A stretch of DNA of 64,000 bases from Thermophilibacter immobilis (GTDB lineage Bacteria; Actinomycetota; Coriobacteriia; Coriobacteriales; Atopobiaceae): NCBI RefSeq assembly GCF_015277515.1, contig NZ_CP063767.1, forward strand, positions 1,240,001 to 1,304,000, read 5' to 3'. A model generated the notes under the pieces. That model did not search any database and was not told where the DNA came from. It saw only the letters and a list, made by a program, of their open reading frames with translations. Positions 10,842 to 43,000 of this stretch are shown piece after piece (the stretch's first letter is position 1; each line of letters opens with the position of its first letter). The position numbers and the translations under genes are program-made.

Positions 10842-10990
10842 AGGGTACGTACGCCCTCCTCCCGGGTGCGTACGCAGCTGCATTTTTTTAAAGGGGATCA
10901 TCGCAAAGGATCCGCAGGTAGGGCCCCTGACGAGAAGAGCATTAATCTAGAAATTGCATACGTATCCTAGGGATGGATGTACGTACCCTT
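10842..10990 (+). repeat. 149-bp interspersed repeat with nested GTACGTAC palindromes, full copy A
   Basis: This intergenic element has four palindromic units centred at 10848.5, 10869.5, 10961.5 and 10982.5 (cores TACGTA, TGCGTA, TACGTA, TACGTA), i.e. spacings 21, 92 and 21 bp. The outer thirds form imperfect terminal inverted repeats of about 33 bp. It aligns without gaps to the copy at 42852-43000 in reverse orientation; I count 113 of 149 identical positions. A further related unit, GGGCACGCGCACC, sits 41 bp upstream at 10801. It fills the space between the convergent ends of the HAD gene and the ABC exporter, whose stop codon starts at the next base. Roles as MITE, protein-binding array or terminator-like element are all open. 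Confidence 0.85.
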
Positions 10991-12646
10991 CTACAGGCGG
11001 ACCACCTTGTCGGCTATGTCATCGAACAGGTCCGTATGCTCGATGACCACCACGATGCCAGACTCCGACAGGTGCCGGACGACCCCCTTCAGCTCCAGGG
11101 ACGAGCCTTGGTCGAGACTCGTGGTCGGCTCGTCAAGAATCAGGACGCTCGCCCCTCGCAGGAGGGCTCGGGCGAGGGAGACCTTCTGCCGCTCGCCTCC
11201 CGACAGCTTTTTCGCGCCCTCGCCCACGACGGTCGCGTCGCCATCGGGGAGCCTCTCGAGCACCCCGTCGAGGCCGGAGAGCCGCACGGCGCTCTCGTAG
11301 GCGGCCTGCTCGTAGTCCTCGCCGCTGAACGCGACGTTATCCCTGATGGTCGCATTCGCGAGAAAGGGCCGCTGCGAGACCGTGGCGCAGCGCTCGCGCC
11401 AGCTCTCCTCGGAGATCTGCTGCAGCGGGACCCCGTCGACCTTGACGGAGCCGGCCCAGTTGCTCACGAGCCCGAGCAGGATCTTCGCGAGCGTCGTCTT
11501 GCCGGAGCCGTTCTGACCCCTCACGACGACGAGGGACGGCGACGTCAGCGAGAAGGAGAGGCCTCCAAAGAGCTCCCCGTTGGAGCCGGGCCACGTGAAG
11601 CGCAGGTCCCTCACGACTATCGACGACGGCTCACCCATCTCGACCGATCCCCGCGTGGGCCCCTCGTCCTGATAGAACGTGTCGGCGATCCGTCCGAGAC
11701 TCGCGAGCGCGGGCTGCACCATGAGCGACACGGACACGGCGACCAGAATCGGGCTGTACATCTGGGAGGCATACTGGACGGCGGCGACCAGCTGGCCGAT
11801 GGTGAGAGACGAGTTGACCACGTACCAGCCGCAGACGATGTAGACGAGTGACGTGGAGAGGGTGGTTAGGGTCTTCATGCCCTCGCCCGTGACCACCGCT
11901 ATGAGCGCCTGGCGTATCCCCTTTGCCTTGAGGGTCTGGTTAAATGCCGCGAGCCGGCCCTTCTCCCGCTTAATGGAACCGTTGACCCTCACCTCCTCGC
12001 GTCCTCCGAGGGTCTCGTTCATCTTCCCCGAGAGCGAGGCCCCGATCTCGAGTGCCTCCTTCGTAACAGCACGATATTGCCCGATCGAATGGTGAGCACA
12101 GAGCAGATAGAGCGGAACGGGCAGAAGGCAGAGGAGAAAAACGGGGAGGCTGATCGAGGCCAGCAGGCCGACGGCGATGAACGCCTGGAAGAGGCTCCCC
12201 AAGAAGGCGAAGTTGGTCTGGGAGAAGAGCATCGAGACGTTCGATACCTCGTTGACGCGTGAGGAGATATAGCCACTGTCCTTGTCGGAGAGCCAGTCCA
12301 GCGGCATCGACAGGGCGCGCTCCATCATATCGGTTCGCATGTCAGCGGCAACGGTCTGGCCCATCGTCGCGAAGAGCTTCGTCGCCAGGATGGAGAGGGC
12401 AGACCGAAGAATTGCCGCCAGGAGCAGGGCAGCGGCGCACAGGACAACGGTTCGGAAGCTTCTCGCCGTGAGGCCGTCGTCTATTAGTCTCTGCGTTATG
12501 AATGCCGGAAGAACGGAAGGGACAGAGTACGCCAGTGTCGTGACGAGTGCGAGGACGAGCTTCGACCAGGTGCGCGCGAGGTAGGGAACTAGCAGCTTCA
12601 CACCGGGACTTCTAAGCATACCGCTACCGAACAGATGAGCATGCAT
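10991..12646 (-). CDS. ABC exporter, fused permease and ATPase
   Basis: Predicted homodimer or half of a heterodimeric exporter in the membrane. Residues about 20-310 contain the transmembrane domain, and the nucleotide-binding domain follows with Walker [10 protein letters not shown] (377-385), signature [15 protein letters not shown] and Walker [13 protein letters not shown]. At 551 residues it is slightly short for a type-I exporter. The start is uncertain: ATG at 12646 or 12619, neither with a clear ribosome site; the first overlaps the truncated gene upstream by 23 bp, suggesting coupling. Cargo is unknown. Codon use and GC look lower in the permease half than in neighbouring genes (impression, not computed), so acquisition by transfer is possible. 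Confidence 0.85.
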
Positions 12647-12791
12647 GAGGGCTCTTCTTCACAGACGCGATGTTGAGCCCCAGCGCGAACAGCGGCATGC
12701 CGCAGGTCTTGTCCCTGAGCCCCAGTCGGATGAGGTCTAGGTACACGACCGTCCAGCAGACCCCGCTCAAGACCGTGAGAAACATGACCAT
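12624..12791 (-). pseudogene. Truncated small integral membrane protein
   Basis: A 55-codon frame starting MVMFLTVLSGVCWTVVYLD and continuing GLRDKTCGMPLFALGLNIA. This resembles the start of a family of multi-pass membrane proteins in which the segment ends ALNIAWE and about 150 more residues follow; I recognise the pattern but cannot name a function. Here the match ends after NIA and a stop follows within 12 residues. The frame runs into the ABC exporter start, so a deletion seems to have joined the two genes. A GGGGAG lies 8-13 bases before the ATG at 12791. Confidence 0.5.
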
Positions 12792-12871
12792 CGTTCGCCA
12801 CTCCCCGCTGTGTCCCCGCCTTGGCGAGGGCGCCACCTTGTCCTAAGGGTTTTTCATCATAGTGCCAAACT

Positions 12872-12960
12872 AGGGCACGTGCACCCCCTGTCCTTGTCTC
12901 CGTTCCCCACAGGGTACGTACACTCCCCTTTCGGGTACGTACACCGTTGCAATATCCGCA
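12872..12960 (+). repeat. Partial copy C of the GTACGTAC repeat
   Basis: Three palindromic units, AGGGCACGTGCACC, AGGGTACGTACACT and CGGGTACGTACACC, centred at 12878.5, 12917.5 and 12938.5 (spacings 39 and 21 bp). They correspond to the extra upstream unit plus the left pair of copy A, including the CCGTT/CGTCC-TTCCCCAC spacer. The similarity fades soon after TTGCAATATCCGCA; the core and the right-hand pair are missing. It lies just before the frameshifted endonuclease-like pseudogene. Confidence 0.7.
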
Positions 12961-13070
12961 CTCGCACGCTGGGGAGAGCTCGGACTTGCCGAGAAGCTCG
13001 GGGGCCCCGCCGCGAGCCCCGGGCCCAGAGCCGGCCCCTTTCGCCGGCAGCCGAGCTCGCGACCCTTGAC

Positions 13071-13863
13071 CTGCGCTCGGCACGCGTCGAGGCAACGCAG
13101 GGGCGGTTCCCCACATCCTGGTCTCAAAGGAGGGCCGGCGGATTCGCTGCAAGAGCGTCAGGAACCGCATCTGGTCGACTCCCCTTCCCAAGGGTGGGTT
13201 CTACCGGCTCGCCGATGACGTACTGCTCGCCTCCCCGGGTTTCTGCCTGCAGCAGATGTCCGCCCGGTCGGGCCTCGCGCGAGCCGCAAGCGTGGGCATG
13301 GAGATCTGCGGCACCTACGCGCGCTCCCCGCACCCCGAGGGAGGGTTCCACAAGAGGCCCGCATGCGACTTCGCCCACAACCACGGCTGCGGGGCACGCC
13401 GGGCGCGCCAGGCTCTGGGCCGCATCATGGCCGGCTCGCGCTCCCCCATGGAGACGGTCGTCGCCCTGCTGCTCACCCTGCCCCGGGAGCTGGGCGGCTG
13501 CGGCCTGCCCCAGCCCCGCCTCAGCCTGCGGGTGGAGATCCCGCCGGACCTCCAGGTCGCGCTCGGCAAGCCCTACCTCGTCGTCTGCCCGTGCTGGCCC
13601 AGCCTGCTTCTCATCGTGGAGTACGACAGCTGCGACCACCACAGCGGCGCCCATGAGGTCGACGGCGACGACGCCAGAAACGAGGGGCTGCGCAACGTGG
13701 GGTGGATGGTGCGCTCCGTCACGTCGGGGATCCTTCTGGACGACGCCCTTCTCGCGACTTTACGCACAAGGTCATGCGACACCCAAAGATCGAGTCTCTC
13801 TGCGACCTCGCGTTCGCCCGCCTCCAGCATGCGCTCGTGCGCGAGCTCCTCTTCCTCGACTGA
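13071..13863 (+). pseudogene. Frameshifted endonuclease-like (DUF559/AbiEi-type) protein remnant
   Basis: An open frame with no start codon runs from 13071 and reads ILVSKEGRRIRCK, FYRLADDVLLASPGFCLQQM, GMEICGTYA, then GSRSPMETVVALLLTLP and VEYDSCDHHS. This order is that of a protein family common in Coriobacteriia that pairs an AbiEi-like N-terminus with a restriction-endonuclease-like fold. Near 13745-13757 the frame shifts by one base: the natural ending THKVMRHPKIESLCDLAFARL continues in another frame to the TGA at 13861. Missing start plus frameshift indicate a decayed gene. Function of intact members is unproven. Confidence 0.65.
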
Positions 13864-13940
13864 GCGGGGAAGCTTTGCAGGGAGTCCTGCACGAGTTCCC
13901 AGGGCCCTGCGGCCCGCGGCTCCGCGTCCCCGCGACGCCC

Positions 13941-14975
13941 CTAGTTGAACTTCACGACCCTCTGGGCCACGCGATAGCCGCCCAGCGTGAGCGACTTGCC
14001 CACGGAGCCCGGCAGGTTGGTGACCAGGCCTACCACGTGGTGGCGCGCGTGGCGATACATGCGCGCGTCGTAGTCCTTGAGCTCGTCCCAGAGGGCCTGG
14101 AGCTGAGCCTCGGCGTCATCGCGCTCGCTCATCTTGGAGAACACCGAGCAGATGGCCATGATGATGGTGAAGTAGCTCAGCATGTAGCCCCTGAGCTGCG
14201 CGGAGTCGATGTCGTCGTAGAGGTGGTAGGCGCGCATCATGATGCGCGCCACCCGCCAGTAGTGGTCCACGCGGCTCGTGAGGACCTTCTCGTTGACCGA
14301 CTGGTCCTCACGACCGATGAGATAGCGGTAGAGGTCGACGTCCAAGTAGTAGAGCGAGCGGCACCGGGGGAACGGCACGTACGCGTAGATGTTGTCCACG
14401 TAGAAGGTGTGGGGCGGCATCTGGAGCTCGGAGGCGCGCAGGACGTCCGTGCGGTAGGTCAGCGCGTGCATGAGCAGGTACTGCCACGGCATGAAGTGGC
14501 CGATCTGGCCCCAGCCGAAGACCATGCCCGTGGGCAGGACGCGGCGGTAGTCGACGGCGTTGTGCGTGTGGTCCTCGACGTGCTCGTAGACGTAGTTGGT
14601 GATAACCAGGTCGATGCGGTCCTCCAGCTCGATGAAGCGCCTGAGCTGGTCGAGAAGGGCGCGCGCCGCATCCGCATCCACCCAGTCGTCCGAGTCGACG
14701 TTCTTGAAGTAGACCCCGTCGGCGTGGGCGACGGCCTTCATGACGGCCACGCCATGTCCGCCGTTGTCCTGGTGGACGGCCTTGACGATCGCGGGGTGGC
14801 GCGCGGCCCAAGCGTCAGCCTTGGCGGCGGTGTCGTCCTTGGTCGAGCCGTCGTCCACGATCACGATCTGGACGTCGTCGGCGTAGCCCGTTCCCACCAG
14901 GATGGACTCGACGCAGCGGTCCATGTAGTCGGCCGAGTTGTAGCACGGGATGCCAAAGGTGATGGTCTTCTTCAT
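13941..14975 (-). CDS. Family 2 glycosyltransferase
   Basis: GT-A fold sugar transferase, probably acting on a cell-surface glycan at the cytoplasmic face. The N-terminus has the usual FGIPCYNSADYMDRCVESIL, the nucleotide-sugar motif VDDGSTKDD and the metal-binding DSDDW (about residues 93-97). The rest (to 344 residues) has no predicted multi-span membrane domain. It is 67 bp downstream of UDP-galactopyranose mutase, so a role in adding galactofuranose or to a Galf-containing polymer is inferred. ATG at 14975 follows AAGAGAGGAA. A large hairpin sits between the two genes. Confidence 0.88.
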   Translation of the reverse strand: MKKTITFGIPCYNSADYMDRCVESILVGTGYADDVQIVIVDDGSTKDDTAAKADAWAARHPAIVKAVHQDNGGHGVAVMKAVAHADGVYFKNVDSDDWVDADAARALLDQLRRFIELEDRIDLVITNYVYEHVEDHTHNAVDYRRVLPTGMVFGWGQIGHFMPWQYLLMHALTYRTDVLRASELQMPPHTFYVDNIYAYVPFPRCRSLYYLDVDLYRYLIGREDQSVNEKVLTSRVDHYWRVARIMMRAYHLYDDIDSAQLRGYMLSYFTIIMAICSVFSKMSERDDAEAQLQALWDELKDYDARMYRHARHHVVGLVTNLPGSVGKSLTLGGYRVAQRVVKFN

Positions 14976-14997
14976 CGACGTTCCTCTCTTGCCCCTT

Positions 14998-15037
14998 CAC
15001 ATGCGAAACGGGCCCTGAGGGGCCCGTTTCGCATGTG
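14998..15037 (-). terminator. 18-bp perfect intercistronic hairpin between glf and glycosyltransferase
   Basis: Bases 14998-15015 pair perfectly with 15020-15037 around a 4-base loop. There is no T-run on either side, so on the minus strand it is more likely an mRNA stability or partial-attenuation element after glf than a full terminator. Confidence 0.6.
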
Positions 15038-15042
15038 AAGCG

Positions 15043-16245
15043 CTAGTTGTGCTCGGAGATGATCTCGTCGGACAGCTCGAGCGCCGAGGCCGTGACGCCG
15101 TCCATGTCGTAGTAGCGGTACTCGGCGAGGCGGCCCACGCAGTGGAAGTTAACCAGGCCCGAGATCCGCGCGCGATAGCGCTTGTAAAGGTCGCGGTTGG
15201 CGTCGTCCAGAATCGCGTAGTAGGGCGTCTGGCCGCGGCCCGGCTCGTAGGGCTGCGGATACTCCCTCATGATCGTGGTCCTGCCGGGCAGGACCTGGCC
15301 GGTCATGTTCTTGAACTCGGTGATGCGCGTGAAGTCCTCGCTCGTGGTGTAGTTCACCGTGCCCACGGGCTGGAACTGGTCGACGTCGAGCGTCTCGAAG
15401 ACCATGTCGAGCGAGCGGTACGGCAACGGTCCCAGGTCCAGGCCAAAGAGCTCGTCGAGGGGGCCGGTGTAGATGATCTCGCCGCCGTAGGGCCTGCCGC
15501 ACACGCTGGCGCTCGTCTCGGTGAGCCTGAGCAGGTCGCGGGCGTCGACGTCAAGGAAGACGGAAATGAGGTCATGCTCCAGCATGCGCTCGAACAGGGC
15601 CGTGTAGCCCTGGGCGGGCATGCCCTGGTAGGTGGACGTGGGGAAGTAGCGGTCGTCGTCGCCCACGAAGACGGGCACGCGCCCCATGACGGAGGGGTCG
15701 ATCTGGTCGGGAGCCTGGCCCCACTGCTTCATGGTGTAGTGCAGGAAGACGTTCTCGTAGACGTAGTCGGCGACCTCCACGAGCTCGGGGTCGTTCTTCT
15801 CGCGAAGCTCCATGATGGGAACCTTCTTGTTCTCGCCGAAGGTGTCCACGAGCTTCTGGTAGAGGCGCTCGCCGCGCTCGTCGCCAAAGGCGAGCCTGAG
15901 CGAGCGGTGGTTGAACGGGACCGGCATGAGGGTACCATGAATGTTGGCGAGCACCTTGTGCTGATAGTCGGTCCAGTCGGTGAAGCGCGAGAGGAAGTCG
16001 TTCACGCGGTCGCTGATGGTGTGGTAGATGTGCGGGCCGTACTTGTGGACCAGGACGCCCGCCTCGTCGGCGTAGTCGTAGGCGTTGCCCGCGATGTGGC
16101 CGCGCCGCTCGAGGATGGCGACCTTGAAGCCGCACGACTCGGCCAGGCGCCGCGCGCACACCACGCCCGCGTAGCCGGCCCCCACCACGATGACGTCGTA
16201 GACGTCGGGGGAAAACCCCGCGGGCAGACCGCTCTGGATACCCAT
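15043..16245 (-). CDS. glf: UDP-galactopyranose mutase
   Basis: Flavoenzyme converting UDP-galactopyranose to UDP-galactofuranose for surface polysaccharides. At 400 residues it has the family length. The FAD-binding VIVVGAGYAGVVCARRLAE is at about residues 18-36, followed by ILERRGHIAGNAYD, the conserved YGPHIYHT, FNHRSL and, near the C-terminus, NYTTSEDFTRITEFK and EYPQPY. Start ATG at 16245 after GAGAGGAC. It diverges from pta across a 193-bp region holding a GC-rich palindrome (near 16269-16288). Confidence 0.96.
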   Translation of the reverse strand: MGIQSGLPAGFSPDVYDVIVVGAGYAGVVCARRLAESCGFKVAILERRGHIAGNAYDYADEAGVLVHKYGPHIYHTISDRVNDFLSRFTDWTDYQHKVLANIHGTLMPVPFNHRSLRLAFGDERGERLYQKLVDTFGENKKVPIMELREKNDPELVEVADYVYENVFLHYTMKQWGQAPDQIDPSVMGRVPVFVGDDDRYFPTSTYQGMPAQGYTALFERMLEHDLISVFLDVDARDLLRLTETSASVCGRPYGGEIIYTGPLDELFGLDLGPLPYRSLDMVFETLDVDQFQPVGTVNYTTSEDFTRITEFKNMTGQVLPGRTTIMREYPQPYEPGRGQTPYYAILDDANRDLYKRYRARISGLVNFHCVGRLAEYRYYDMDGVTASALELSDEIISEHN

Positions 16246-16347
16246 ACAAGTCCTCTCAGCGTCTTCGGCATGCGCGCCGCCCCAGGCGGCGCGGCGAGAA
16301 GAGCACGCATCTGGCCAATCGTCCCCATGATTCTAGCATCTCGACCC

Positions 16348-16353
16348 TATAAT
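16348..16353 (+). promoter_or_regulatory. -10 box upstream of pta
   Basis: A perfect TATAAT lies 86 bp before the pta ATG. The -35 region is poor (no TTGACA-like hexamer at 16-18 bp). It is the only consensus -10 in the glf-pta intergenic space and fits the high expression expected of pta. Confidence 0.55.
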
Positions 16354-16438
16354 GGGTCTGCGTCCGCCCCGCGCCGTCAACATGCACAAAACGCGCGGTG
16401 GACGAGCTGGTAGAGGAGTCTTTTTTCGAAGGAGCACC

Positions 16439-17419
16439 ATGAGCGATTTTCTATCCCGCATGAAGACGGCGGCCAAGGCCGACAAGAAGACGATCGTCCT
16501 GCCGGAGGGCGAGGACCCGCGCACCCTCGAGGCGGCGCGCAAGGTCATCGCCGAGGACCTCGCCGAGCTCGTCATCCTGGGCAACCCCGATGCAATCGAC
16601 GTCAAGGGCGCGACCGTGATCGACCCGCGCTCCTCCGAGAGGCGCGAGGGGTACGCCGCCAAGTTCGCCGAGCTGCGCGCCAAGAAGGGCGTCACGCTGC
16701 CCGAGGCCCGCGAGCAGATGGGCGACGCCACCTACTTCGGCACCATGATGGTCAAGATGGGCGACGCCGACGGCCTGGTCTCCGGAGCCTGCCACTCCAC
16801 CGCCAACACCCTGCGCCCGGCGCTCCAGATCCTCAAGACCGCCCCGGGCACCAAGCTCGTCTCGGCGTTCATGATCATGTGCACCAAGACGCCCGAGTAC
16901 GGCGCGGACGGCACGCTGCTCTTCGCCGACTGCGGCCTGAACATCGCTCCCACCGCCGACGAGCTCTCCGAGATCGCCCTGGCGTCCGCCGAGTCCTTCA
17001 AGACGTTCATGGGCGACGTCGAGCCCAAGGTGGCCATGCTCAGCTTCTCCACGATGGGCTCCGCCAAGGGCGACGTGCCCACCAGGGTCCAGGAGGCCAC
17101 CAGGCTCGCCAACGAGAAGAATCCCGCAATCGAGCTCGACGGTGACCTGCAGCTCGACGCCGCTCTGGTCCAGTCCGTCGCCGACCTCAAGGCCCCGGCC
17201 TCCAAGGTCGCCGGCCACGCCAACGTCCTGGTCTTCCCCGACCTGGAGAGCGGCAACATCGGCTACAAGCTGGTGCAGCGCCTTGGTGGCGCCGAGGCCT
17301 ACGGCCCCATCCTGCAGGGCATTGCCAAGCCGGTCAACGACCTCTCGCGCGGCTGCTCCGCCGACGACATCGTGGGCGTGGTCGCCATCACCGCCGTCCA
17401 GGCGCAGCTGGCCGAGTAG
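16439..17419 (+). CDS. pta: Phosphate acetyltransferase
   Basis: Converts acetyl-CoA and phosphate to acetyl phosphate, feeding acetate kinase for ATP. The 326 residues are the short catalytic form without the regulatory N-terminal domain of enterobacteria. Recognisable segments are IVLPEGEDPRTLEAA at the start, SGACHSTANTLRPALQ and MLSFSTMGSAKGD in the middle, and VFPDLESGNIGYKLVQRLGGAEAYGPILQG near the end. The start is the ATG at 16439 after GAAGGAGC. Acetate kinase is not adjacent; it lies about 14 kb away. Confidence 0.97.
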   Translation: MSDFLSRMKTAAKADKKTIVLPEGEDPRTLEAARKVIAEDLAELVILGNPDAIDVKGATVIDPRSSERREGYAAKFAELRAKKGVTLPEAREQMGDATYFGTMMVKMGDADGLVSGACHSTANTLRPALQILKTAPGTKLVSAFMIMCTKTPEYGADGTLLFADCGLNIAPTADELSEIALASAESFKTFMGDVEPKVAMLSFSTMGSAKGDVPTRVQEATRLANEKNPAIELDGDLQLDAALVQSVADLKAPASKVAGHANVLVFPDLESGNIGYKLVQRLGGAEAYGPILQGIAKPVNDLSRGCSADDIVGVVAITAVQAQLAE

Positions 17420-17445
17420 GCTCTCCCCCTCATCTCGCACGGCTT

Positions 17446-17477
17446 GGGGCGTCACCTTTTGGGGTGGCGCCCCTTCT
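17446..17477 (+). terminator. Terminator after pta
   Basis: Stem 17446-17456 pairs with 17463-17473 (one G-T pair) around a 6-base loop, followed by TTCT. It begins 26 bp after the pta stop. Confidence 0.75.
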
Positions 17478-17486
17478 CATCGCGTT

Positions 17487-17605
17487 TGTGCGGCCGCACA
17501 TGACAGGATTCCTCGACTGACAAAAACAAACGACTCCTCTACCTGCATAAACATAAAGATGAAATCGAACAGCGCGCTATCTCCGAGTTTTGCGGCCGCA
17601 CAAAA
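17487..17605. repeat. Two GTGCGGCCGCAC palindromes between pta and pckA
   Basis: TGTGCGGCCGCACA at 17487-17500 and TTTTGCGGCCGCACAAAA at 17588-17605 share a 15-base sequence in opposite orientation. The 87 bp between them are markedly AT-rich for this genome. The pair lies between the convergent 3' ends of pta and pckA. They look like binding sites or the edges of a lost insertion; no gene is visible between them. Confidence 0.5.
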
Positions 17606-17663
17606 GAGAGACATTGGGGCGAGAAGCACCGTCACCGCGCCCAGCCCCGCCGTGCGGGTGAGA

Positions 17664-35142: not shown

Positions 35143-35256
35143 GCGTGACTCCAATCACAAGACGAAAGAGACCCCTCGCTGTTCTCGACCATTCTACCCA
35201 GCGGGCGGGACACAAACCCCGTCTGGCGGCAAAGCGGCACAGACGACAGGGCACGC

Positions 35257-36387
35257 CTAGAGCAGCTCGATGCGCCCCTCCTTGACCGTGACGCCAACCT
35301 CGCCAGAGAGCAGCCGGCCGAGGGTCTTTCCCGCGAGCTCCCAGCGCCACGAGCGGCCCAGGCGCGACGCGCCCCGGTCATGGAGGAAGTCGAGGAGGTC
35401 GTCGCGCGTGGCGATGAGCTGGGTGGCCACGCCGCTCTTCTCGGATATGACGCGCATGACCGCGTACATGAGGTCGACGACGCCCTCGGACTCGCTCGAC
35501 AGGCGCGCGCGGCGGCTCACCTTGGGGCACTTCTCGGCCGGGCACGCCACGCCCTTCTCGACGTCCTCCACGAGGGCACGGCAGACGCGCTCGGAGAGCT
35601 GCTCGGTCCCGCGGATGCGCCTCAGGCGCTCAGGGGACGTGGGCATGCGCTTGCTCACCTCGACCACGATCTCGTCGGACAGGACCCACTTGCGCGGGAC
35701 GTCGCGCTCGGCCGCAGTCCTCTCGCGCCAGGCGCAGACCTCGCGGGCCACGGCGAGCTGGCGACGGGTGAGCGAGCCGGCGCGCTTAAGGTGGGTAAAG
35801 GCCTCGCGCGGCTCGCGACGGACGTGAGACACGTCCGTCAGCTCGCGCATCTCGGGCTCCACCCAGCCCAGGCGATCGGCCTTGACGAGCTGGGCCATCA
35901 TGCGCTCGTAGATGCCCGTGAGGTAGCGCACGTCGTCCTCGGCGTAGGTGAGCTGCTCGGGGTCGAGCGGGCGGCGCGACCAGTCGGTGAGCGCCTCGGC
36001 CTTGGGCAGGCGGACGTCGCAGTAGGCCTCGACGAGCGAGCCGTAGCTCACCTGCTGGCGCATGCCCAGGAAGGCGGCCGCGAGCTGCGTGTCAAAGACC
36101 GACGCGCAGGCGCAGCCCATGCCATCGAGCAGGACCTCGAGGTCCTGGGTGCACGCGTGGAAGACCTTGGTCACCGAGGGGTCCTCAAACAGGGCGGACA
36201 GGGGCGAGAGGTCCTCGATGAGAATCGGGTCGATCGCGGCAATCTGGTCGCCGGCGGCCACCTGGACCAGGCAGAGCCGGGGGTAGTAGGTCTTCTCGCG
36301 GAGAAACTCGGTGTCGACGGCAAGGACCCTGGAGTCTCCCGCGCGCTCGCAGAAGGCCTGAAGCTCGGATTGGTTCGAGAGGTACAC
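35257..36387 (-). CDS. rnd: Ribonuclease D-like 3'-5' exonuclease
   Basis: DEDD-family exonuclease for tRNA 3' maturation or RNA turnover. The exo motifs are DTEFLREKTYYPRL (exo I, Asp and Glu), HACTQDLEVLL (exo II) and YAEDDVRYL (exo III, Tyr and Asp). An HRDC domain follows near residues 195-275 (REVCAWRERTAAERDVPRKWVL). The start is uncertain: I choose GTG at 36387, just before YLSNQSELQAF, since upstream codons of the open frame show no homology; its ribosome site is weak. Divergent from the lipid kinase gene. Confidence 0.88.
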   Translation of the reverse strand: MYLSNQSELQAFCERAGDSRVLAVDTEFLREKTYYPRLCLVQVAAGDQIAAIDPILIEDLSPLSALFEDPSVTKVFHACTQDLEVLLDGMGCACASVFDTQLAAAFLGMRQQVSYGSLVEAYCDVRLPKAEALTDWSRRPLDPEQLTYAEDDVRYLTGIYERMMAQLVKADRLGWVEPEMRELTDVSHVRREPREAFTHLKRAGSLTRRQLAVAREVCAWRERTAAERDVPRKWVLSDEIVVEVSKRMPTSPERLRRIRGTEQLSERVCRALVEDVEKGVACPAEKCPKVSRRARLSSESEGVVDLMYAVMRVISEKSGVATQLIATRDDLLDFLHDRGASRLGRSWRWELAGKTLGRLLSGEVGVTVKEGRIELL

Positions 36388-36512
36388 GGCGCTCGATTCT
36401 GTCGTGCGAGGTTCGAGATAACATACGGGGACGTCTTCGGCGGCCCCTCGCAGGCCTGCCGCAGTATATGATACAGACAATGGTCCGGTCCGATTCCTGG
36501 GGAGCAAAAGGC

Positions 36513-37487
36513 GTGCGTGCGCTTATCATTCACAATCCGAAGTCGGGCTTTGGCTCGGACGCGATCTTCCAGTTCGAGCGGGTGCTCGTCCACGACGGCG
36601 ACGAGTGCCTGCTGCGCGTCCTGGCCGACGACTTCGTGGCCACCGACGTCTGCGCGGACGCGACACGCTTCGACGTGGTCGTAGTCTCGGGCGGCGACGG
36701 GACCGTTACCTCGCTGCTCTACGCCCTCAGGGACACCGGGGTTCCCGTCTGCGTCTTTCCCTCAGGTACGGCCAACCTCCTGTGCGCCAACATAGGCAAC
36801 GCCCCCGAGCCCACGGCGCTCGCGCGCGCCTGCCGCGCGGGCAAGGTGGCCGAGGTCGACCTCGGCGAGATCTCGTGGACGGACGCGGACGGCACCAGGC
36901 AGGTGCGCGGCTTTGGCCTCATGTCGGGCACCGGCTTCGACGCCCAGCTCATGGAGGCGGCCCTGCCGAACAAGGCGCTCATGGGGCAGGCCGCCTACTT
37001 CGCGGCCGCCCTCACCAACCCCCGGCCGGCCGTCGAGCGCTTCGCCATCACCGTGGACGGAGACAGCGTCGAGCGCGACGGCATCACCTGCCTCGTGGCG
37101 AACAACGCCATGATCCAGGGGGACATCCAGATCGTCCCCAACTGCCGCATGGACGACGGCTTGCTCGACGTCATCGTGGTGGAGACCTCGGCGACCGCCC
37201 AGCTGCTCGCCCCGCTCGCCCTCGGGCTCGCGGACAGGAGCGGCAAGGCGCTGGGGCGACCATTTCTGGAGAGCTTCCAGGGTCGCTCGATTCGCGTCGA
37301 GGCGAGCGAGCCGATGCCGCTCGAGGTGGACGGTGACGTGGTCTGCGACGGCGTCATCGCCTACGAAGCGCGCGCCCTGCCCCGCTGCGTCCGCCTCATC
37401 GTGGACGCCATGAGCCCCTACGGCACGATCGATGACGGCTCCTCGCGCTTCGGGGGCTCCGACGTGATCGCCTACCCAGACGCGTAG
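36513..37487 (+). CDS. Diacylglycerol kinase family lipid kinase
   Basis: Predicted ATP-dependent lipid kinase of the DagK/YegS fold. The 324 residues start at a GTG preceded by GGAG and read IIHNPKSGFGSD, then the nucleotide motif VVVSGGDGTVTSLL (near residue 60) and PSGTANLLCANI. The second half is the beta-sandwich domain ending in LEVDGDVVCDG. Whether the substrate is diacylglycerol or another lipid such as an undecaprenol is not decidable here. Confidence 0.88.
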   Translation: MRALIIHNPKSGFGSDAIFQFERVLVHDGDECLLRVLADDFVATDVCADATRFDVVVVSGGDGTVTSLLYALRDTGVPVCVFPSGTANLLCANIGNAPEPTALARACRAGKVAEVDLGEISWTDADGTRQVRGFGLMSGTGFDAQLMEAALPNKALMGQAAYFAAALTNPRPAVERFAITVDGDSVERDGITCLVANNAMIQGDIQIVPNCRMDDGLLDVIVVETSATAQLLAPLALGLADRSGKALGRPFLESFQGRSIRVEASEPMPLEVDGDVVCDGVIAYEARALPRCVRLIVDAMSPYGTIDDGSSRFGGSDVIAYPDA

Positions 37488-37677
37488 GGCGCCGCGCGGC
37501 GGGTTTCTCACCGTTGGCCCGGCTGGATTTCTCGCCTGCGTTTCTCGGCCGCTCGCGAATTTCGAGCCCTGGCAGATTTCGAGAGGTTGGGACGTGCCGC
37601 AGCCCGTGATTCTTGCGCAAGGCGACCCCTCCGCGCGCCGTAGCCCTCAATTCCTGAGCAGCACGGGTGCCAGCCCG

Positions 37678-37989
37678 CTACAGCACGAGCGACAGCAGCG
37701 CGTAGACCGCCATGCCCGCCAGGGCACACCAGATGAGCGAGCCGGTCTTGCGGGCCACCAGGACCACGAGCGCCGCCGAGACGAGCGGCACCGGGTCCGG
37801 GCCGGCCGCGGGGTCGATGAGGTCGTTGGCCACGAGGGCCGCGAAGGCGGCGGGCGGGATGAACCCGAGCGCCTCGCTCACGCGCGGCGAGAGGGTGCGG
37901 CCCTTGAGGGCGAAGAGGGGCACGCAGCGAAAGACGAGTATCGCCGCGAGCACGCAGGCATAAAAGACCCAGAAGCCCTCCCCGCTCAT
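37678..37989 (-). CDS. azlD: AzlD family branched-chain amino acid transport subunit
   Basis: Small membrane partner of AzlC in export of branched-chain amino acids or analogues. The 103 residues contain three or four spans and the family segment LSPRVSEALGFIPPAAFAALVANDL. Its ATG (37989) overlaps the azlC stop by 4 bp. The 190-bp stretch after it, up to the lipid kinase stop, holds no gene; it has several TTTCTCG repeats of unclear meaning. Confidence 0.88.
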   Translation of the reverse strand: MSGEGFWVFYACVLAAILVFRCVPLFALKGRTLSPRVSEALGFIPPAAFAALVANDLIDPAAGPDPVPLVSAALVVLVARKTGSLIWCALAGMAVYALLSLVL

Positions 37990-38669
37990 CGGGCAAGCGC
38001 CCCCCTGGCCATGCCCGCCACGACCCCCGCCACAGCACCGACCACCACGGCCGCCCCGCCGAGACCCGCGAGCTTCATGAGCGCCACCACGACCACCGAG
38101 CAGGCCACCACCACGAGCGTGGTGGAGTCCCAGCGCTGGCCCACGAGCAGGCAGATGAAGATCGCAGTCATGGCGAACGACATCACGGCCACGGGCACGG
38201 CGATGACGGCACCCGCGGCGCACCCCACGGTGTTCGACAGGGTCCACGACGCCATGCTGACGAGGTTCACGCAGACGGCGCTCACGGCGTCCCATCCCCC
38301 GTCGGACGCGAAGCGCTCGAGGTTGACCCCGAAGCTCTCGTCGGTCACCGTGGCCGAGAACAGGGCGGCGAGCGGTCGTCCCACCTGCGAGAAGTAGGGC
38401 GAGAAGGCCGCCGCGTAGAGCATCTGCCTGCTGCTCACCAAGGTGATGCTGGCCACGATCGAGGCCAGGGGCGCGCCGGCGAGCGCCATGGAGGACATCA
38501 TGAACTGCCCCGCGCCCGAGTAGAACGTGCAGGAGAGCAGGAGGGCCTGCCACCAGGCGAGCCCCGCCTGGGAGGCCATCACGCCGCAGGGGAGGCCGAT
38601 CGTCACGTAGCCGAGCGCCACGGGGGCGGCTGCGGACAGGGCTGGCCGCATGTCTGGCAGGGACCTCAC
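37986..38669 (-). CDS. azlC: AzlC family branched-chain amino acid permease
   Basis: Main membrane subunit of the AzlCD exporter, 227 residues with about six spans. Typical segments are FYSGAGQFMMSSMALAGA, SSRQMLYAAAFSPYF and TDESFGV. It begins at GTG 38669, overlapping the end of the oxidoreductase gene by 4 bp (GTGA), although an ATG at 38651 is an alternative. The overlap chain oxidoreductase-azlC-azlD implies one operon. Confidence 0.9.
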   Translation of the reverse strand: MRSLPDMRPALSAAAPVALGYVTIGLPCGVMASQAGLAWWQALLLSCTFYSGAGQFMMSSMALAGAPLASIVASITLVSSRQMLYAAAFSPYFSQVGRPLAALFSATVTDESFGVNLERFASDGGWDAVSAVCVNLVSMASWTLSNTVGCAAGAVIAVPVAVMSFAMTAIFICLLVGQRWDSTTLVVVACSVVVVALMKLAGLGGAAVVVGAVAGVVAGMARGALAR

Positions 38670-39736
38670 GCCTCCGCGCGCTCGTCTGCCGGGAAGCGCA
38701 CGCCCACCTGACGGCGCACCTCGTCCATCACGTGAAGCGACCCCAGGGTCACGCCCTCGAAGCGCTCGCGGCGCGCGAGCGCGGCCGCGTCGCCCCGAAC
38801 GGCACCGACAAAGGCGTCGATCTCGCAGACCATGTCCCTCTCGGGGACCTCGACCTCCAGGGGGCGCAGCTCCTCGGCCCCCACGCGAAAGACCATGCCC
38901 TTGTCCTCATGCTCGTGGACGCGTAGGTTCACGGGGCACGACGTCTGGTCCCAGACGAGCGTGGCCTTCTCCCCCGCCACCTGCGAGGAGAGCATGTCGT
39001 CGGCCGCCTTGCCGTAGGAGATGCTCACGATCTTGTCGCCATAGCCCAGAAGGACCTCACCGGCCAGGTCGATCGTGGCGTATGCGCTGCCCTCGGGCTC
39101 GCCGGGCACGGCAGCGGTGACTCCGAGGGCGCGCACCGTCTGCGGGACGCCGAACAGCGCCACCGCCGGCTCGACGCAGTAGACGCCGATGTCCATGAGG
39201 GCCCCGGCGGACATGCGGGGGTCGAAGATGTTCAGCCGCTCGCCGGCGGCAAGGCGGGCCATGCGCGAGGTGACCTTGGCGAAGCGCAGGGTTGCCTGGC
39301 GAACGCGCCCCAGCTCGCCCAGGGTGCGCTCGATGGCGTCGAAGGTGGGAACGTAGAGGTTGCGTATGGCCTCCATGGCCACCACGCCGGCCGTGCGCGC
39401 CGCGTCGAAGACGTCTTGGGCCTCGCGTTCGTTGGAGGCGAGGGACTTCTCCACGAGGACGTGCTTCCCGCGCGCGATGAGCTCGAGCGCCTGGGGTGCG
39501 TGCAGGGCGTTGGGGCTCGCCACGTAGACGGCGTCCACCTCGGGACTGGTCGCGAGCGTGGAGAGGTCGTCGAAGAACAGGCGCGCCCCGTGGGGCTCGC
39601 CGAACGCGCGCGCGTGGGCGCGGTCACGCGAGTAGGCCCCCACGTAGGTCCCCTCCTCGGAGAGGGGGAGCGCCTGCAGGAACTGCTCGCAGATGCCGCT
39701 CGTTCCTATGGTCGCAAACCGCACCTTTTTGTCCAT
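38666..39736 (-). CDS. Gfo/Idh/MocA family oxidoreductase
   Basis: NAD(P)-dependent dehydrogenase of unknown substrate. The 356 residues begin with the Rossmann segment RFATIGTSGICEQFLQAL; the dinucleotide/substrate motif VYVASPNALHAPQALELIARGKHVLVEKSLA, containing the conserved EK(S/P), follows near residues 75-105. The C-terminal domain spans about 125-350. ATG at 39736 after GAGGAG. Its link to the AzlCD exporter is positional only. Confidence 0.9.
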   Translation of the reverse strand: MDKKVRFATIGTSGICEQFLQALPLSEEGTYVGAYSRDRAHARAFGEPHGARLFFDDLSTLATSPEVDAVYVASPNALHAPQALELIARGKHVLVEKSLASNEREAQDVFDAARTAGVVAMEAIRNLYVPTFDAIERTLGELGRVRQATLRFAKVTSRMARLAAGERLNIFDPRMSAGALMDIGVYCVEPAVALFGVPQTVRALGVTAAVPGEPEGSAYATIDLAGEVLLGYGDKIVSISYGKAADDMLSSQVAGEKATLVWDQTSCPVNLRVHEHEDKGMVFRVGAEELRPLEVEVPERDMVCEIDAFVGAVRGDAAALARRERFEGVTLGSLHVMDEVRRQVGVRFPADERAEA

Positions 39737-39812
39737 GGTATCCTCCTCGCGCACCGCGCCGTTTTGCCCGATTGTACACTACGTGCTTTTCTCGTGCGCA
39801 GGGTCTGCGACC

Positions 39813-39821
39813 TGCTATGGT
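39813..39821 (+). promoter_or_regulatory. Extended -10 promoter upstream of the thioesterase gene
   Basis: TGCTATGGT fits an extended -10 (TGn followed by TATGGT) 31 bp before the ATG at 39853. No -35 element is clear. Confidence 0.4.
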
Positions 39822-39852
39822 TTTGGTGGAAAGATCTGATGACGGGAGTCCT

Positions 39853-40569
39853 ATGTACTCATTCGACGCTCGCGTGCGCTACAGCGAATGCGACAAGGAC
39901 GGGCGCCTCTCGCTCGTCGCCATGATCAACTACCTGCAGGACTGCTCGACCTTCCACTCCGAGAGCCTGGGCATAGGGTTCGGGCCCCTCGGCGAGCGCG
40001 GCCTTGCGTGGGTTCTTGGTGCCTGGCAGATAGAGATAGAGGAGCTGCCGCTCTTCAACACCCCCATCACGGTCTCGACCTGGTGCCATGAGATAACGCA
40101 CGCACACGCGCTCAGGAACTTCCAGATCCTGGACTGCGAGGGGCGCACCCTCGTGCGCGCGGACTCGCAGTGGCTCATGTTCGACACGGCCAAGCAGCGC
40201 GCCACGCGCGTCCCCGAGGACCAGCGCGCCTACTTCACCGGCGAGAAGCGCCTGGACATGGCCCCCTTCGAGCGCAAGATTCGGGTTCCCGAGGGAGGGC
40301 GGCGCTGTCAGACCATCGTGGTCGGCGAGCAGAACCTCGACACGAACCGACACGTCAACAACGCCCAGTACGTGCTCTTCGCCCTGGACGCGCTCGCGGA
40401 GCTGGGCCACGCGATTGACCTCGCGCGCCTCTCGGTGCAGTACCGCAAGATGGCCTGGCTGGGAGACTCCATCGTTGCTGTGGCGCACGAGGATGGGGGC
40501 GGCTGGGTCGTCGAGCTCGAAGACGAGGCGGGGACGAACTACGCCCTCGTCAGGCTCAAGACAAGGTAG
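39853..40569 (+). CDS. Acyl-ACP thioesterase
   Basis: Predicted to release fatty acids from acyl carrier protein. The 238 residues form a double hot-dog fold: the first half carries VRYSECDKDGRLSLVAMINYLQD and the second repeats with NLDTNRHVNNAQYVLFAL, the conserved Asn-His-x-Asn-Asn segment of FatA/FatB-type enzymes. Start is the ATG at 39853 after GGGAG. The Nudix gene follows after 9 bp. The gene occurs widely in anaerobic Gram-positives, where its role is not well defined. Confidence 0.9.
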   Translation: MYSFDARVRYSECDKDGRLSLVAMINYLQDCSTFHSESLGIGFGPLGERGLAWVLGAWQIEIEELPLFNTPITVSTWCHEITHAHALRNFQILDCEGRTLVRADSQWLMFDTAKQRATRVPEDQRAYFTGEKRLDMAPFERKIRVPEGGRRCQTIVVGEQNLDTNRHVNNAQYVLFALDALAELGHAIDLARLSVQYRKMAWLGDSIVAVAHEDGGGWVVELEDEAGTNYALVRLKTR

Positions 40570-40578
40570 GGGGACAAC

Positions 40579-40995
40579 ATGCCCATCACCCACGTCTCGG
40601 CGGCCATCATCTATCGTGACGAGCGCGTCCTCGCGGGACATCGCACGGACGGCAAGCTGGCCGGCGGCTGGGAGTTTCCCGGCGGCAAGGTGAAGGACGG
40701 CGAGACCCCCGAGGAGGCCCTGCGCCGCGAGATCGCAGAGGAGCTCGGCTGCGACCTGCAGCTCATGTGGCCCTACGACACCATCGAGTACGACTACCCC
40801 GCCTTCCACCTGAGCATGGACTGCTTCGTCTGCACGCTCGCGCATGGCGAGGAACCCCGAGGGATCGTCCATGACGAGCTGCGTTGGCTGAGCAAGGCCG
40901 AGCTCCTCGACGTGGAGTGGCTCCCCGCCGACGTGCGCCTCGTGCGCGAGCTGGGCCTGTTCTGGGACAACACCTTCGAGCCCGAGCACCTCTAG
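40579..40995 (+). CDS. Nudix hydrolase, MutT (8-oxo-dGTP diphosphatase) type
   Basis: Predicted sanitising hydrolase for oxidised nucleotides. The Nudix box is intact: GGKVKDGETPEEALRREIAEELG at residues 34-56. WEFPGGK just before it, and the 138-residue size, are typical of MutT. ATG at 40579 after GGTAGGGGG; 9 bp from the thioesterase and 11 bp before the next gene, in a same-strand run leading to thyA and dfrA. Confidence 0.92.
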   Translation: MPITHVSAAIIYRDERVLAGHRTDGKLAGGWEFPGGKVKDGETPEEALRREIAEELGCDLQLMWPYDTIEYDYPAFHLSMDCFVCTLAHGEEPRGIVHDELRWLSKAELLDVEWLPADVRLVRELGLFWDNTFEPEHL

Positions 40996-41006
40996 GGAGG
41001 ATGCGC

Positions 41007-41417
41007 ATGGATGAGACAGACGACCGGCGGCCGACGCGCGTGCCACCCGTCATAGAGAGCGCGAGCGCGACCACCTCCCCCGACAACGCGCGCTCGGGAC
41101 CCGTCGCCTACGTGGTCACGGCCCTGGTCGTGGGGCTTCTCGCCCTCTTCACCCTGAGCCTCTCCAGCTGCGTGTCCGCCGTGGGCCAGATTGCCACCAC
41201 CTCGGGATACGCGCGTCCCGATGACTACGGCTATGACCATTACGACTACTATGACTACTACGATAACTACCCTGACGAGGACTCCTACTCCGACGACTAC
41301 GAGCCCTACGACGAGTACCTCAACGAGCTCCATGACGGCTCGCCGGAGAGGAGCGGCCCTCTCGACGGGCTTTCCCTCCTGACGAGCTCTCTGGATTCGA
41401 GCCCCTCGGCGCGCTAG
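41007..41417 (+). CDS. Tyr/Asp-rich single-span membrane protein, unknown function
   Basis: Not recognised. The 136 residues consist of a polar N-terminus (1-30), one hydrophobic span (about 33-55, VAYVVTALVVGLLALFTLSL), and a C-terminal region in which residues about 68-100 are almost entirely Tyr, Asp, Glu and Ser (for example HYDYYDYYDNYPDED). I use the ATG at 41007, 6 bases after GGGAGG; an ATG at 41001 touches that site. A Cys right after the span (SSCVS) is a possible but poor lipobox. It lies in a tight same-strand run between the Nudix gene and thyA. Confidence 0.75.
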   Translation: MDETDDRRPTRVPPVIESASATTSPDNARSGPVAYVVTALVVGLLALFTLSLSSCVSAVGQIATTSGYARPDDYGYDHYDYYDYYDNYPDEDSYSDDYEPYDEYLNELHDGSPERSGPLDGLSLLTSSLDSSPSAR

Positions 41418-41455
41418 GTCGCGTCGACGCCCCCGCACGCAGGAAGGAACGCCTC

Positions 41456-42304
41456 ATGAGCAAGGCCGACGACCTCTTCGTCTCCATGTGCTCCGACATC
41501 ATCGAGCACGGAACCACCACCGAGGGCCAGCGCGTCCGCCCGCGCTGGGAGGACGGCACCCCCGCCTACACCCTCAAGCGCTTCGGCGTGTGCAACCGCT
41601 ACGACCTGCGCGAGGAGTTCCCCGCGCTCACGCTGCGCCGCACCGCCCTCAAGTCCGCCCTGGACGAGGTCCTCTGGATCTACCAGAAGAAGTCGAACAA
41701 CGTACGCGACCTCCGCTCCCACATCTGGGACGCGTGGGCCGACGAGTCAGGCTCGATCGGCAAGGCCTACGGCTACCAGGTGGGCGTCACGTCCCGCTAC
41801 CCCGAGGGCGACTTCGACCAGATGGACCGCGTCCTGTTCGACCTGCGCGAGAACCCCTACTCGCGGCGCATCATGACGAACCTCTACACCTTCTCGGACC
41901 TCTCCGAGATGCACCTGTACCCCTGCGCCTTCAACGCCATCTACAACGTGACGCAGGAGCCCGGTGCCGAGCGGCCCACCCTCAACATGCTGCTCGTCCA
42001 GCGCAGCCAGGACGTGCTCGCGGCCAACAACTGGAACGTCTGCCAGTACGCCCTGCTGCTCATGATGGTCGCCCAGGTCTCGGGCATGGAGGCCGGGGGG
42101 CTCGTCCACATGATCGCAGACGCGCACATCTACGACCGCCACGTGGACATCGTCCGCGAGCTCATCGAGAGGCCCCATTACCCCGCGCCGCACGTGAGCC
42201 TGAACCCCGAGGTCACGGACTTCTACGACTTCACCTGCGACGACCTTGTCGTCGAGGGCTACGAGCACGGGCCGCAGGTCAAGAACATCCCCATCGCCGT
42301 CTAG
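41456..42304 (+). CDS. thyA: Thymidylate synthase
   Basis: Methylates dUMP to dTMP with methylene-THF, giving dihydrofolate. The nucleophilic cysteine is in YPCAFNAIYNV (near residue 158); this has Ala where the E. coli type has His after the Cys. QRSQDVLAANNWNVCQYALL and HIYDRHVD are conserved substrate-binding segments. Length 282. This PCA form is, from memory, seen in a divergent ThyA subgroup in Gram-positives and phages, so I regard it as functional. ATG after GGAAGGAA. dfrA follows, recycling the dihydrofolate. Confidence 0.92.
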   Translation: MSKADDLFVSMCSDIIEHGTTTEGQRVRPRWEDGTPAYTLKRFGVCNRYDLREEFPALTLRRTALKSALDEVLWIYQKKSNNVRDLRSHIWDAWADESGSIGKAYGYQVGVTSRYPEGDFDQMDRVLFDLRENPYSRRIMTNLYTFSDLSEMHLYPCAFNAIYNVTQEPGAERPTLNMLLVQRSQDVLAANNWNVCQYALLLMMVAQVSGMEAGGLVHMIADAHIYDRHVDIVRELIERPHYPAPHVSLNPEVTDFYDFTCDDLVVEGYEHGPQVKNIPIAV

Positions 42305-42362
42305 GTCGCACACGGCCGAGCGTGAGTCAAGGGCTGGAAGCCGAGAGAGCCGAGGAGGCATC

Positions 42363-42899
42363 ATGAACGCCATCGTATCCGTGACGTCCGACTGGGGCAT
42401 CGGCAGATCAGGTGCCCTGCTCGTGAGAAACCCCGCCGACATGCGCTTCTTTGTGGAGCACACCCGGGGCGGCACCGTCATCATGGGCCGCAGGACCCTC
42501 GAGAGCTTCCCGGGCGGGCCCCTCAAGGGGCGCAGGAACGTCGTGATCTCGCGCCGGCCGGACGAGGTCCCCGCGGGGGTCGAGGTCGCGGGCTCTCCCG
42601 TCGCCGCGGTGAGTCTCGTGGCGGACGACGACCCCGAGCGGGTCTGGCTCATCGGCGGCGCCTCGGTCTACGCCGCCCTCATCGACCGCTGCACGCGCGC
42701 CTACGTGACCAAGCACGACTGCGTGCTGCCGGCCGACGCCTACTTCCCCGACCTGGACGCCGACCCGTCCTGGGTCGTCGAGGCGCAGGAGCCGGGAGGG
42801 ACCACCGAGGATGGCACGGCCTTCTCGTTCGTGACGTACCGGCGGGCGTATAGGGCGCGCACACCCCTCCCCAAGGTACGTACACAATTTCTAGATTGA
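42363..42899 (+). CDS. dfrA: Dihydrofolate reductase
   Basis: Reduces dihydrofolate to tetrahydrofolate. The 178 residues have DWGIGRSGALLVRNPADMRFF at the start, TVIMGRRTLESFPGGPLKGRRNVVISR (NADPH and folate sites), and VWLIGGASVYAAL. ATG at 42363 after GAGGAGG. The usual C-terminal strand ends near FVTYRRA; the last 16 or so residues (YRARTPLPKVRTQFLD) are encoded inside the 149-bp repeat. The gene therefore ends in repeat DNA, a probable acquired tail. Confidence 0.93.
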   Translation: MNAIVSVTSDWGIGRSGALLVRNPADMRFFVEHTRGGTVIMGRRTLESFPGGPLKGRRNVVISRRPDEVPAGVEVAGSPVAAVSLVADDDPERVWLIGGASVYAALIDRCTRAYVTKHDCVLPADAYFPDLDADPSWVVEAQEPGGTTEDGTAFSFVTYRRAYRARTPLPKVRTQFLD

Positions 42900-43000
42900 T
42901 GCTCTTCTCGCCAAGAGCCCTACCTGCGGACTCTCTCAGATGACCCCGCTTTAAAAAGCGCAACTGCGTACATACCCCAAGAGAGAGTGTACGTACCCTT
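42852..43000 (-). repeat. 149-bp interspersed repeat with nested GTACGTAC palindromes, full copy B
   Basis: This is the reverse-oriented partner of the copy at 10842-10990. Palindromic units are centred at 42858.5, 42879.5, 42971.5 and 42992.5 (plus-strand cores CGCGCA, TACGTA, TACATA, TACGTA): spacings 21, 92, 21, identical to copy A. The best-conserved part is the core with GTCCGCAGGTAGGGC and GAGAAGAGCAT, then AATCTAGAAATTG. It overlaps the last 48 bases of dfrA and lies before the convergent small membrane gene. Confidence 0.85.

Follow-up and report, generated by a model that had tools for sequence, protein, structure and literature searches.

A nuclease gene flanked by symmetric repeats in Thermophilibacter immobilis and its relatives: a candidate counterpart of the REP/RAYT systems

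Introduction

Systems made of a repeat and a cognate gene are known in bacteria from the RAYT (REP-associated tyrosine; REP, repetitive extragenic palindrome) transposases. Their layout, as described in PMC2817692, is a gene located between two palindromic repeats, with further copies scattered and repeat letters that are specific to each lineage. Here we analyze a symmetric repeat of 148 bp, with arrays of short sites at both ends, that appears twice in a stretch of 64 kb ("the window", positions 1240001-1304000) of the genome of Thermophilibacter immobilis (G000, a single contig of 2.16 Mb). As in that account of REP and RAYT, a gene is flanked by two copies of the repeat, more copies are scattered and the letters are lineage-specific. 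Unlike the Y1/HUH transposase of RAYT, the protein combines an AbiEi-like part with a Vsr/EDxHD-like nuclease part. From the comparison of genomes, we consider it probable that the element is the terminal repeat, also found as scattered solo copies, of a small mobile system with this nuclease as its sole gene.

Several described proteins resemble parts of this nuclease. AbiEi antitoxins, which belong to type IV toxin-antitoxin systems and bind inverted repeats (PMC7319586), are like its N part; unlike them, the gene described here has no constant partner recognized by eye, bears an added nuclease part and is accompanied by scattered elements. MTES_1575 and DUF559 are Vsr-type restriction endonuclease domains that match the protein weakly. 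MTES_1575 itself, after which the first domain is named, is fused to HEPN and wHTH domains, and a repeat-flanked gene does not form part of the passages on it in PMC3710099. The closest fold to the nuclease part is I-Bth0305I, one of the EDxHD/Vsr-like homing endonucleases, from which the present system differs in its AbiEi-like N part, in the long repeats at either side and in the tens more found in the genus.

Among repeats, the MITEs (miniature inverted-repeat transposable elements) and those of the CREE, RUP and IRU types are short intergenic sequences with terminal inverted repeats, and the elements described here are likewise short, intergenic and with inverted ends. By analogy only, their paired and solo states recall those of LTRs (long terminal repeats) and solo LTRs. 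Unlike MITEs and LTRs, the link in this case is to a nuclease of another fold and not to a transposase or a reverse transcriptase.

Genomes, loci and searches

G-numbers designate genomes and L-numbers fetched loci. The 31 genomes of the genus set belong to Thermophilibacter/Olsenella (Atopobiaceae), according to the named records. Gene names such as folA, aroB, hisS or rpmB were recognized by eye. Profile R1 was built from 25 copies of the element, one of which (L057) itself flanks a nuclease gene; it favors the GTACGTAC class of half-site, and it often matched one element on both strands. The gene sets overlap, the 21 named subfamily-A loci (see below) covering approximately the genomes of the 19-locus set and, in addition, two second copies of the gene.

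Two copies of the element in the window

The repeat had been noticed in a first-pass annotation, as two copies of 149 bases aligned without gaps and with 113 identities. The gapless alignment and the identities were confirmed; the length was not, the true overlap being 148 bases because the earlier spans were out of register by one base. Reading the sequence base by base gave the same spacing between site centres (21, 92 and 21 bp) in both copies, as had been claimed. The likeness of the two copies is not due to chance, since the BLAST E value is 2.5e-25 and further full copies exist in the host genome. The features are as follows:

10842..10989, plus strand: full copy of the element, 148 bp, between convergent genes
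10845-10852 and 10866-10873, plus strand: left end of the first copy, two GTACGTAC-type sites 21 bp apart
10912..10945, plus strand: conserved core motif CCGCAGGTAG-N9-CGAGAAGAGCATTAA
10958..10986, plus strand: right end of the first copy, ATACGTAT at 10958-10965 and GTACGTAC at 10979-10986, 21 bp apart
42852..42999, minus strand: full copy of the element, 148 bp, within which a predicted reading frame (folA) terminates
42855..42883, minus strand: right end of the second copy, a decayed GCGCGCAC at 42855-42862 and GTACGTAC at 42876-42883
42896..42929, minus strand: conserved core motif of the second copy
42968..42996, minus strand: left end of the second copy, sites at 42968-42975 and 42989-42996

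The outermost site of the second copy has lost GTACGTAC and reads GCGCGCAC. At this same copy, the element provides the last codons and the stop of the predicted folA frame (42852-42899).

Copies in the host genome and in the genus

A genome search found five full copies in G000, with lengths of 146, 148, 148, 148 and 150 bp; the other four matched the first with BLAST E values between 3e-16 and 3e-25, and the mutual likeness was 73-80%. Besides those in the window, they are:

731668-731817, host genome: full copy
773590-773737, host genome: full copy
1466055-1466200, host genome: full copy
718501-718615, host genome: decayed copy

Together with an isolated left end in the window (see below), the host total is seven places: five full copies, one decayed and one isolated end. 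Six of the copies sit outside predicted genes or at their extreme ends, three of them between convergent gene pairs and three between codirectional ones.

A plain DNA search detected the element in 11 of the 31 genomes of the genus, and profile R1 in all 31 and in three of 109 other genomes of the family. The first-pass annotation had proposed a profile search of the host and of other Atopobiaceae genomes, and more copies were indeed found. Among the R1 matches listed, at least 20 distinct places were counted by eye in each of G004 and G006. Scattered copies, as in the REP/RAYT systems, are therefore present (seven places in G000, at least 20 in those two genomes), unlike the 37-427 perfect copies given for REP in PMC2817692. 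Another genus of the family, represented by G087, gave seven R1 matches, the best with an E value of 8.4e-8.

Anatomy of the element and differences between lineages

The elements have from one to four end sites per side, of the type [A/C]GG(G/T)TRYGYRCAC, pointing inward and repeated every 19-22 bp. The letters of the sites by lineage include GGGTACGTACAC, AGGGTATGTACACC, AGGTTATGCGGCAT, CGGTTATGCGCA, GCGGTATGCGCAA, CGGTTATGTACAGT, CGGTTACGTACAC and CGGGTGTGTACGAA. The distance between the innermost sites is mostly set per lineage as well, with values of 70-73 bp (step 19), 80-82 bp (step 22) or 90-93 bp (step 21, in those with several sites); the core of L159 fell outside the reach of the site pattern used for measuring. 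Contrasting classes are found, for instance with cores of 81 versus 92 bp and half-sites GTATGTAC versus GTACGTAC. One half of the core holds the conserved CCGCAGGTAG-N6-TGGCGAGAAGAACATCAA, and the other half is very variable in sequence, with a near-constant length over the 25 aligned copies.

A spacing of 21-92-21 is characteristic of one group of lineages only, others having different core lengths. The fixed length claimed initially is only nearly so, being 146-150 bp in the host, with site numbers and cores that vary elsewhere. Variable lengths and spacings had been named beforehand as what would refute the proposal, and they do occur in part; the variation mostly follows the lineages, with increments of about 10 bp or one helical turn, which a protein complex bound along a single face of the DNA would tolerate. 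A symmetric repeat with paired end sites similar to those bound by proteins, spread in related genomes and resembling the ends of mobile elements, is a description that, judged from sequence, was upheld.

The tetranucleotide GTAG is present inside the core of many copies, although not all. We did not find the GT(A/G)G head plus short GC-rich palindrome of REP type: the element is a symmetric sequence of 148 bp with arrays of GTACGTAC type. REPs are palindromes of 20-40 bp (PMC3733652), against about 150 bp with arrays of sites in this case. At one orthologous locus (L173 and L174), the half-site of the 3' element is CGGGTATGTGCACC in one species and CGGGTGTGTACGAA in its sister, as if it had been replaced.

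A nuclease gene between two copies

In five of the 10 fetched stretches (L096, L097, L099, L100 and L103) the gene enclosed by clusters of R1 matches coded for the same kind of protein, unnamed and of about 318 amino acids. With an intact protein as query, each of the 31 genomes gave between 7 and 19 family matches. The subfamily linked to the element (A) comprises those with more than 50% identity. R1 matched both sides of 17 of 19 subfamily-A genes (one side in L115, neither in L117) and both sides of 19 of the 21 loci of the named set (one side in L163, neither in L165). When the upstream DNA was compared with the downstream DNA by BLAST, repeats of 84-207 bp appeared in 18 of the 19 loci; in L117 the flanks had the half-sites alone in common. 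As a control, R1 was found at both sides of aroB in none of 30 genus loci. A copy of the repeat at either side of the gene, as in the REP/RAYT layout, is thus found in subfamily A; unlike REP/RAYT, the two flanking copies may have either relative orientation, direct or inverted.

An association with the DUF559-like family in its entirety was considered and rejected, since R1 gave no match around the other members in G000 (L031-L034) and was absent from all 10 loci of other subfamilies (L125-L134). The association was narrowed to A in consequence, and widened again because subfamily B has its own palindrome (see below).

The distance from the end of the upstream copy to the start of the gene was 208-303 bp in 17 of 18 measured loci and 435 bp in L115. 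A promoter-like TAnnnT box was located 13-16 bp 5' of the start codon in 17 of 21 loci, a count with no control for chance level. In L171 the flanking copies are 98% alike within the locus and 85% between sister species, with flanks 94.5% alike. Concerted evolution of the flanking pair was considered in this context; it is strong in L171 but not general, and we do not claim it.

In the window, a member of subfamily A is found in a broken state:

12911..12950, plus strand: isolated left end with a pair of perfect GTACGTAC sites (spacing 21 bp), the remainder of the element being gone
12951..13945, plus strand: broken subfamily-A nuclease gene, its homology starting directly after the isolated end
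10991..12646, minus strand: ABC transporter gene (named by eye) between the first full copy and the isolated end, given as context only

The first codons of the broken gene are gone and the homology runs through three different frames, with 64% identity to an intact homolog over residues 62-285. The ABC transporter frame stops 2 bp short of the first full copy. The system is decaying in this genome, with a disrupted nuclease gene, a lone end that has lost its element, and full copies that are no more than 73-80% alike.

Fold and family of the protein

A structure model built from the 21 named relatives had a mean pLDDT of 84 and a pTM of 0.84. For residues 180-294 the best alignment was the catalytic domain of I-Bth0305I (3r3p_A), of EDxHD type, with a VIA Z of 6.0 and a root-mean-square deviation (rmsd) of 3.0 over 86 aligned residues. 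For residues 1-174 it was the AbiEi antitoxin 6y8q (Z 4.9, rmsd 3.3, 113 aligned). Among the 21 proteins D227, E238, H245 and D252 are invariant and D240 nearly so; the order of the conserved E, D, H and D is compatible with the EDxHD motif, to which we would assign them. Pfam gave weak matches to MTES_1575 in 18 of the 21 proteins and to DUF559 in five, plus one chance match; in one example the MTES_1575 score was 15.6 bits versus a curated cut-off of 38.2. The modest fold matches agree with these weak family matches and with the invariant residues.

Transposase_17, the Pfam family of the Y1 (HUH) tyrosine transposases, was not among the matches of the 21 proteins. We do not regard the system as a RAYT system because the defining protein is missing, although the layout is common to both and, judging from the present data, it functions in a similar way. 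NCBIfam and PADLOC gave no family for the three members tried, phages had no match to the nuclease family, and in a plasmid collection two weak matches appeared, in very large replicons. No constant partner gene, such as the AbiEii toxin, was seen at the eight loci described below, the neighbors of which differ when compared by eye, without a library scan.

Changes of place of the gene

The 21 subfamily-A genes occupy eight loci, beside rpmB, hisS, a beta-galactosidase gene, aroB-aroA and four others, and at one locus the entire unit is inverted in one genome. At least seven relocations are needed to explain the protein tree. Every locus that has more than one member corresponds to one side of a branch, and the branch support is good for hisS, beta-galactosidase and comF and weak for aroB (75/86) and rpmB (49/10).

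The aroB-aroA space was compared in 30 genomes (G028, the 31st, was left out) and appears in three states. It is filled, with the gene between two elements, in six genomes (G004, G013, G015, G023, G026 and G030); it has a solo element and no gene in two (G019 and G027); and it contains neither in 22, in which the intergenic space measures from -3 to 121 bp. Of the eight occupied sites R1 matched seven, and the 22 unoccupied ones gave no match. A search with the aroB-type element of G026 gave 16-43 matches in G019, G023, G026, G027 and G030, and 0-5 in the other 26 genomes. All five genomes rich in this element type carry the gene or a solo element at aroB.

Subfamily B and distant relatives

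An intact gene of a second subfamily is present in the host genome and is flanked by a palindrome of its own:

1826467-1827375, host genome: intact subfamily-B gene

With both palindromes the unit spans 1826370-1827631 of the host genome (L031, 1871-3133). The palindrome, of 66-68 bp and form CGACCATACCCGAACGCC...GGCGTTCGGGTATGGTCG, was found in nine further places in G000 (E below 1e-3). Relatives of B in six other genomes share the GACC...GGTC frame with other letters, clearly in L125-L128 and more weakly in L129 and L130; the flanking matches measure 60-75 bp in the former and just 18-22 bp in the latter two. The comparison of upstream with downstream DNA found no flanking pair at L131-L134 or at the G000 gene at 567554.

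Farther away, a Gordonibacter homolog (36% identity) is flanked by inverted repeats (about 150 bp, with 72% identity), and one from an uncultured actinobacterium (28% identity) by direct repeats of 121 bp, 96% identical. Of 396 genomes sampled from the class Coriobacteriia, 269 had a relative of the Gordonibacter protein. Among the matches listed, Coriobacteriia genomes often had at least five to the nuclease family. Thirty distant loci (L219-L248) were analyzed for flanking repeats, which were found in 14 at E <= 1e-5, with lengths of 29 to 298 bp; L219 is the same place as L175, and L235 and L239 had less than 250 bp downstream. The same treatment of the flanks of 30 aroB loci of the genus detected none (0/30).

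We would put at about even chances a broader reading: that mobile elements with a Vsr/EDxHD-type nuclease as sole protein extend through the Coriobacteriia, that specificity and end geometry are reset by lineage, and that several systems which do not cross-react coexist within a single chromosome, the way of life of REP/RAYT having been reinvented with a different enzyme. The protein would recognize terminal elements of 60-150 bp through the inverted site arrays at their ends.

Proposed mechanism and alternative explanations

A REP/RAYT-like system built on an unrelated nuclease is the best reading that we can offer, its movement being deduced from genome comparison. The geometry and the matching letters of the end sites, about two helical turns apart, suggest that oligomers of the protein would bind the inverted arrays, and the fold and conserved residues that the nuclease would cut at or near the element. 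Repair or recombination may then copy, excise, replace or move it, and when two elements flank the gene this would be carried along. Solo copies would be non-autonomous products, or the remnant left after recombination between flanking copies in the manner of solo LTRs. The initial annotation had considered mobile-element ends, a MITE or a repressor array. The behavior is indeed end-like, although the owning gene with its AbiEi-like and Vsr-like parts had been missed.

If the reading is true, a second, unrelated enzyme with palindromic repeats of its own would show that this arrangement arose more than once, and restriction-type nucleases would be added to the enzyme types with a possible part in repeat dispersal. 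Intergenic repeats as well as unnamed proteins in many Coriobacteriia would then have an explained origin. The change of half-sites across lineages provides a natural series for studying how the DNA specificity and site spacing of such a nuclease are determined. We found no description of the repeats or of the gene family in the open PubMed Central (PMC) literature, a search to which subscription journals and most preprints were external; as far as searched there, the nuclease-linked elements are undescribed.

Several observations weigh against the mobile system proposed. Transposition, binding and cleavage are all proposals drawn from sequence and a model. The VIA Z values are modest (at most 6) and Foldseek gave no significant match (best E 0.19). 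Likeness between the two flanking copies reaches 96-98% in some loci and 74-80% in others; their cores differ in L163 (91 upstream, 72 downstream) and L165 (80 and 90), and in L173 the two are unlike in half-site. Three genomes with the gene at aroB, namely G004, G013 and G015, have few matches of the G026 type (5, 0 and 4) and different half-sites. When the best R1 match of each genome was compared by eye with the class of the resident intact gene, eight of 18 agreed and 10 did not (G002 was left out, its best copy being the flank of the gene itself); many genomes hold element classes for which their gene was not found, possibly because it has been lost. Moves appear to be rare, the gene being mostly single copy and at one locus per clade. 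By eye, no target-site duplication was recognized at the filled, solo and empty aroB-aroA sites, in regions that are divergent. Among the distant loci, 16 of 30 had no flanking repeat at E <= 1e-5, and some of the 14 repeats measure just 29-40 bp.

Regulation is the main rival because AbiEi antitoxins autoregulate through inverted repeats that they bind in their promoter (PMC7319586). The AbiEi-like protein would be a regulator that represses its own gene and scattered targets, with a nuclease-like domain not used for mobility. The AbiEi-like N part of the model, the phased palindromes similar to operator arrays and the matching positions of some copies in different species (by eye) are in its favor. 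However, a copy is found also downstream of the gene, and the upstream one ends 208 bp or more before the start, whereas the TAnnnT box is 13-16 bp from it in most loci; this also makes the repressor array suggested initially less likely. Looping of the DNA might still connect the two. Besides, all six G000 copies are 3' of at least one gene, and 24 loci comprised 15 codirectional, five divergent and four convergent arrangements, counts without a clear bias toward divergent genes and with no genome-wide baseline (the mis-centred L046 and L059 were dropped from 26). Regulation accounts for the site arrays, but leaves unexplained that copies lie downstream, that the gene changes place and that one locus is found in three states, and we consider it unlikely. 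In another reading, the elements would be the natural target of a selfish gene of the homing-endonuclease kind. Homing would proceed by the nuclease cutting solo elements, the gene copying itself into them to end up between two, and the solo copies would have another origin or function. Homing normally splits the target in two, whereas the flanking copies described here are in most cases complete at both sides, and the solo state is found in just two genomes, with either order relative to the filled state compatible with the comparison. The resemblance of the nuclease part to I-Bth0305I, whose family is reported to dimerize on a target of nearly 60 bp (PMC3943268), and the solo, filled and empty states of one locus point toward homing, which we nevertheless hold to be distinctly improbable.

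The last two explanations deserve much less credit. Terminal inverted repeats, intergenic placement and tens of copies would all be expected of an ordinary MITE that belongs to a classical transposon, of DDE or another type, and lies near the nuclease gene by chance. The association is specific to one nuclease subfamily, in lineages with matching ends, and no classical transposase gene recurs between copies in the fetched loci inspected by eye, with no genome-wide search. The nuclease gene is the only one that recurs there (also by eye, with no scan of a family library), leaving the MITE of a conventional insertion sequence unsupported and, to our judgment, highly improbable. Even less can be expected from a structured RNA or a transcription terminator. 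Strong hairpins are predicted (z of -4.2 and -3.3) and the copies in G000 have a 3' location, but the fold follows from the palindromic end sites, the covariation term over five copies is slightly unfavorable (+0.76), no Rfam match at the gathering score appeared across the window, and in other genomes copies are found between divergent genes and with unequal numbers of sites per side. We dropped the RNA reading because the symmetry of the ends explains the hairpins.

Other observations

The sequence GGCGAGAAG, which is part of the core, appears 18 times in the window versus 2.45 expected, an excess of about seven-fold. It probably reflects codon use (Gly-Glu-Lys codons), since 15 of the 18 are within predicted genes. 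In L032 (2431-2559, at about 568.5 kb of the host genome) there is an inverted repeat of 129 bp with arms of 40 nucleotides, GGGACTTGTCAATAGATTT ... AAATCTATTGACAAGTCCC. It lies 3' of a gene of a third subfamily beside hisS and has no upstream partner; in other species, subfamily A has likewise landed beside hisS.

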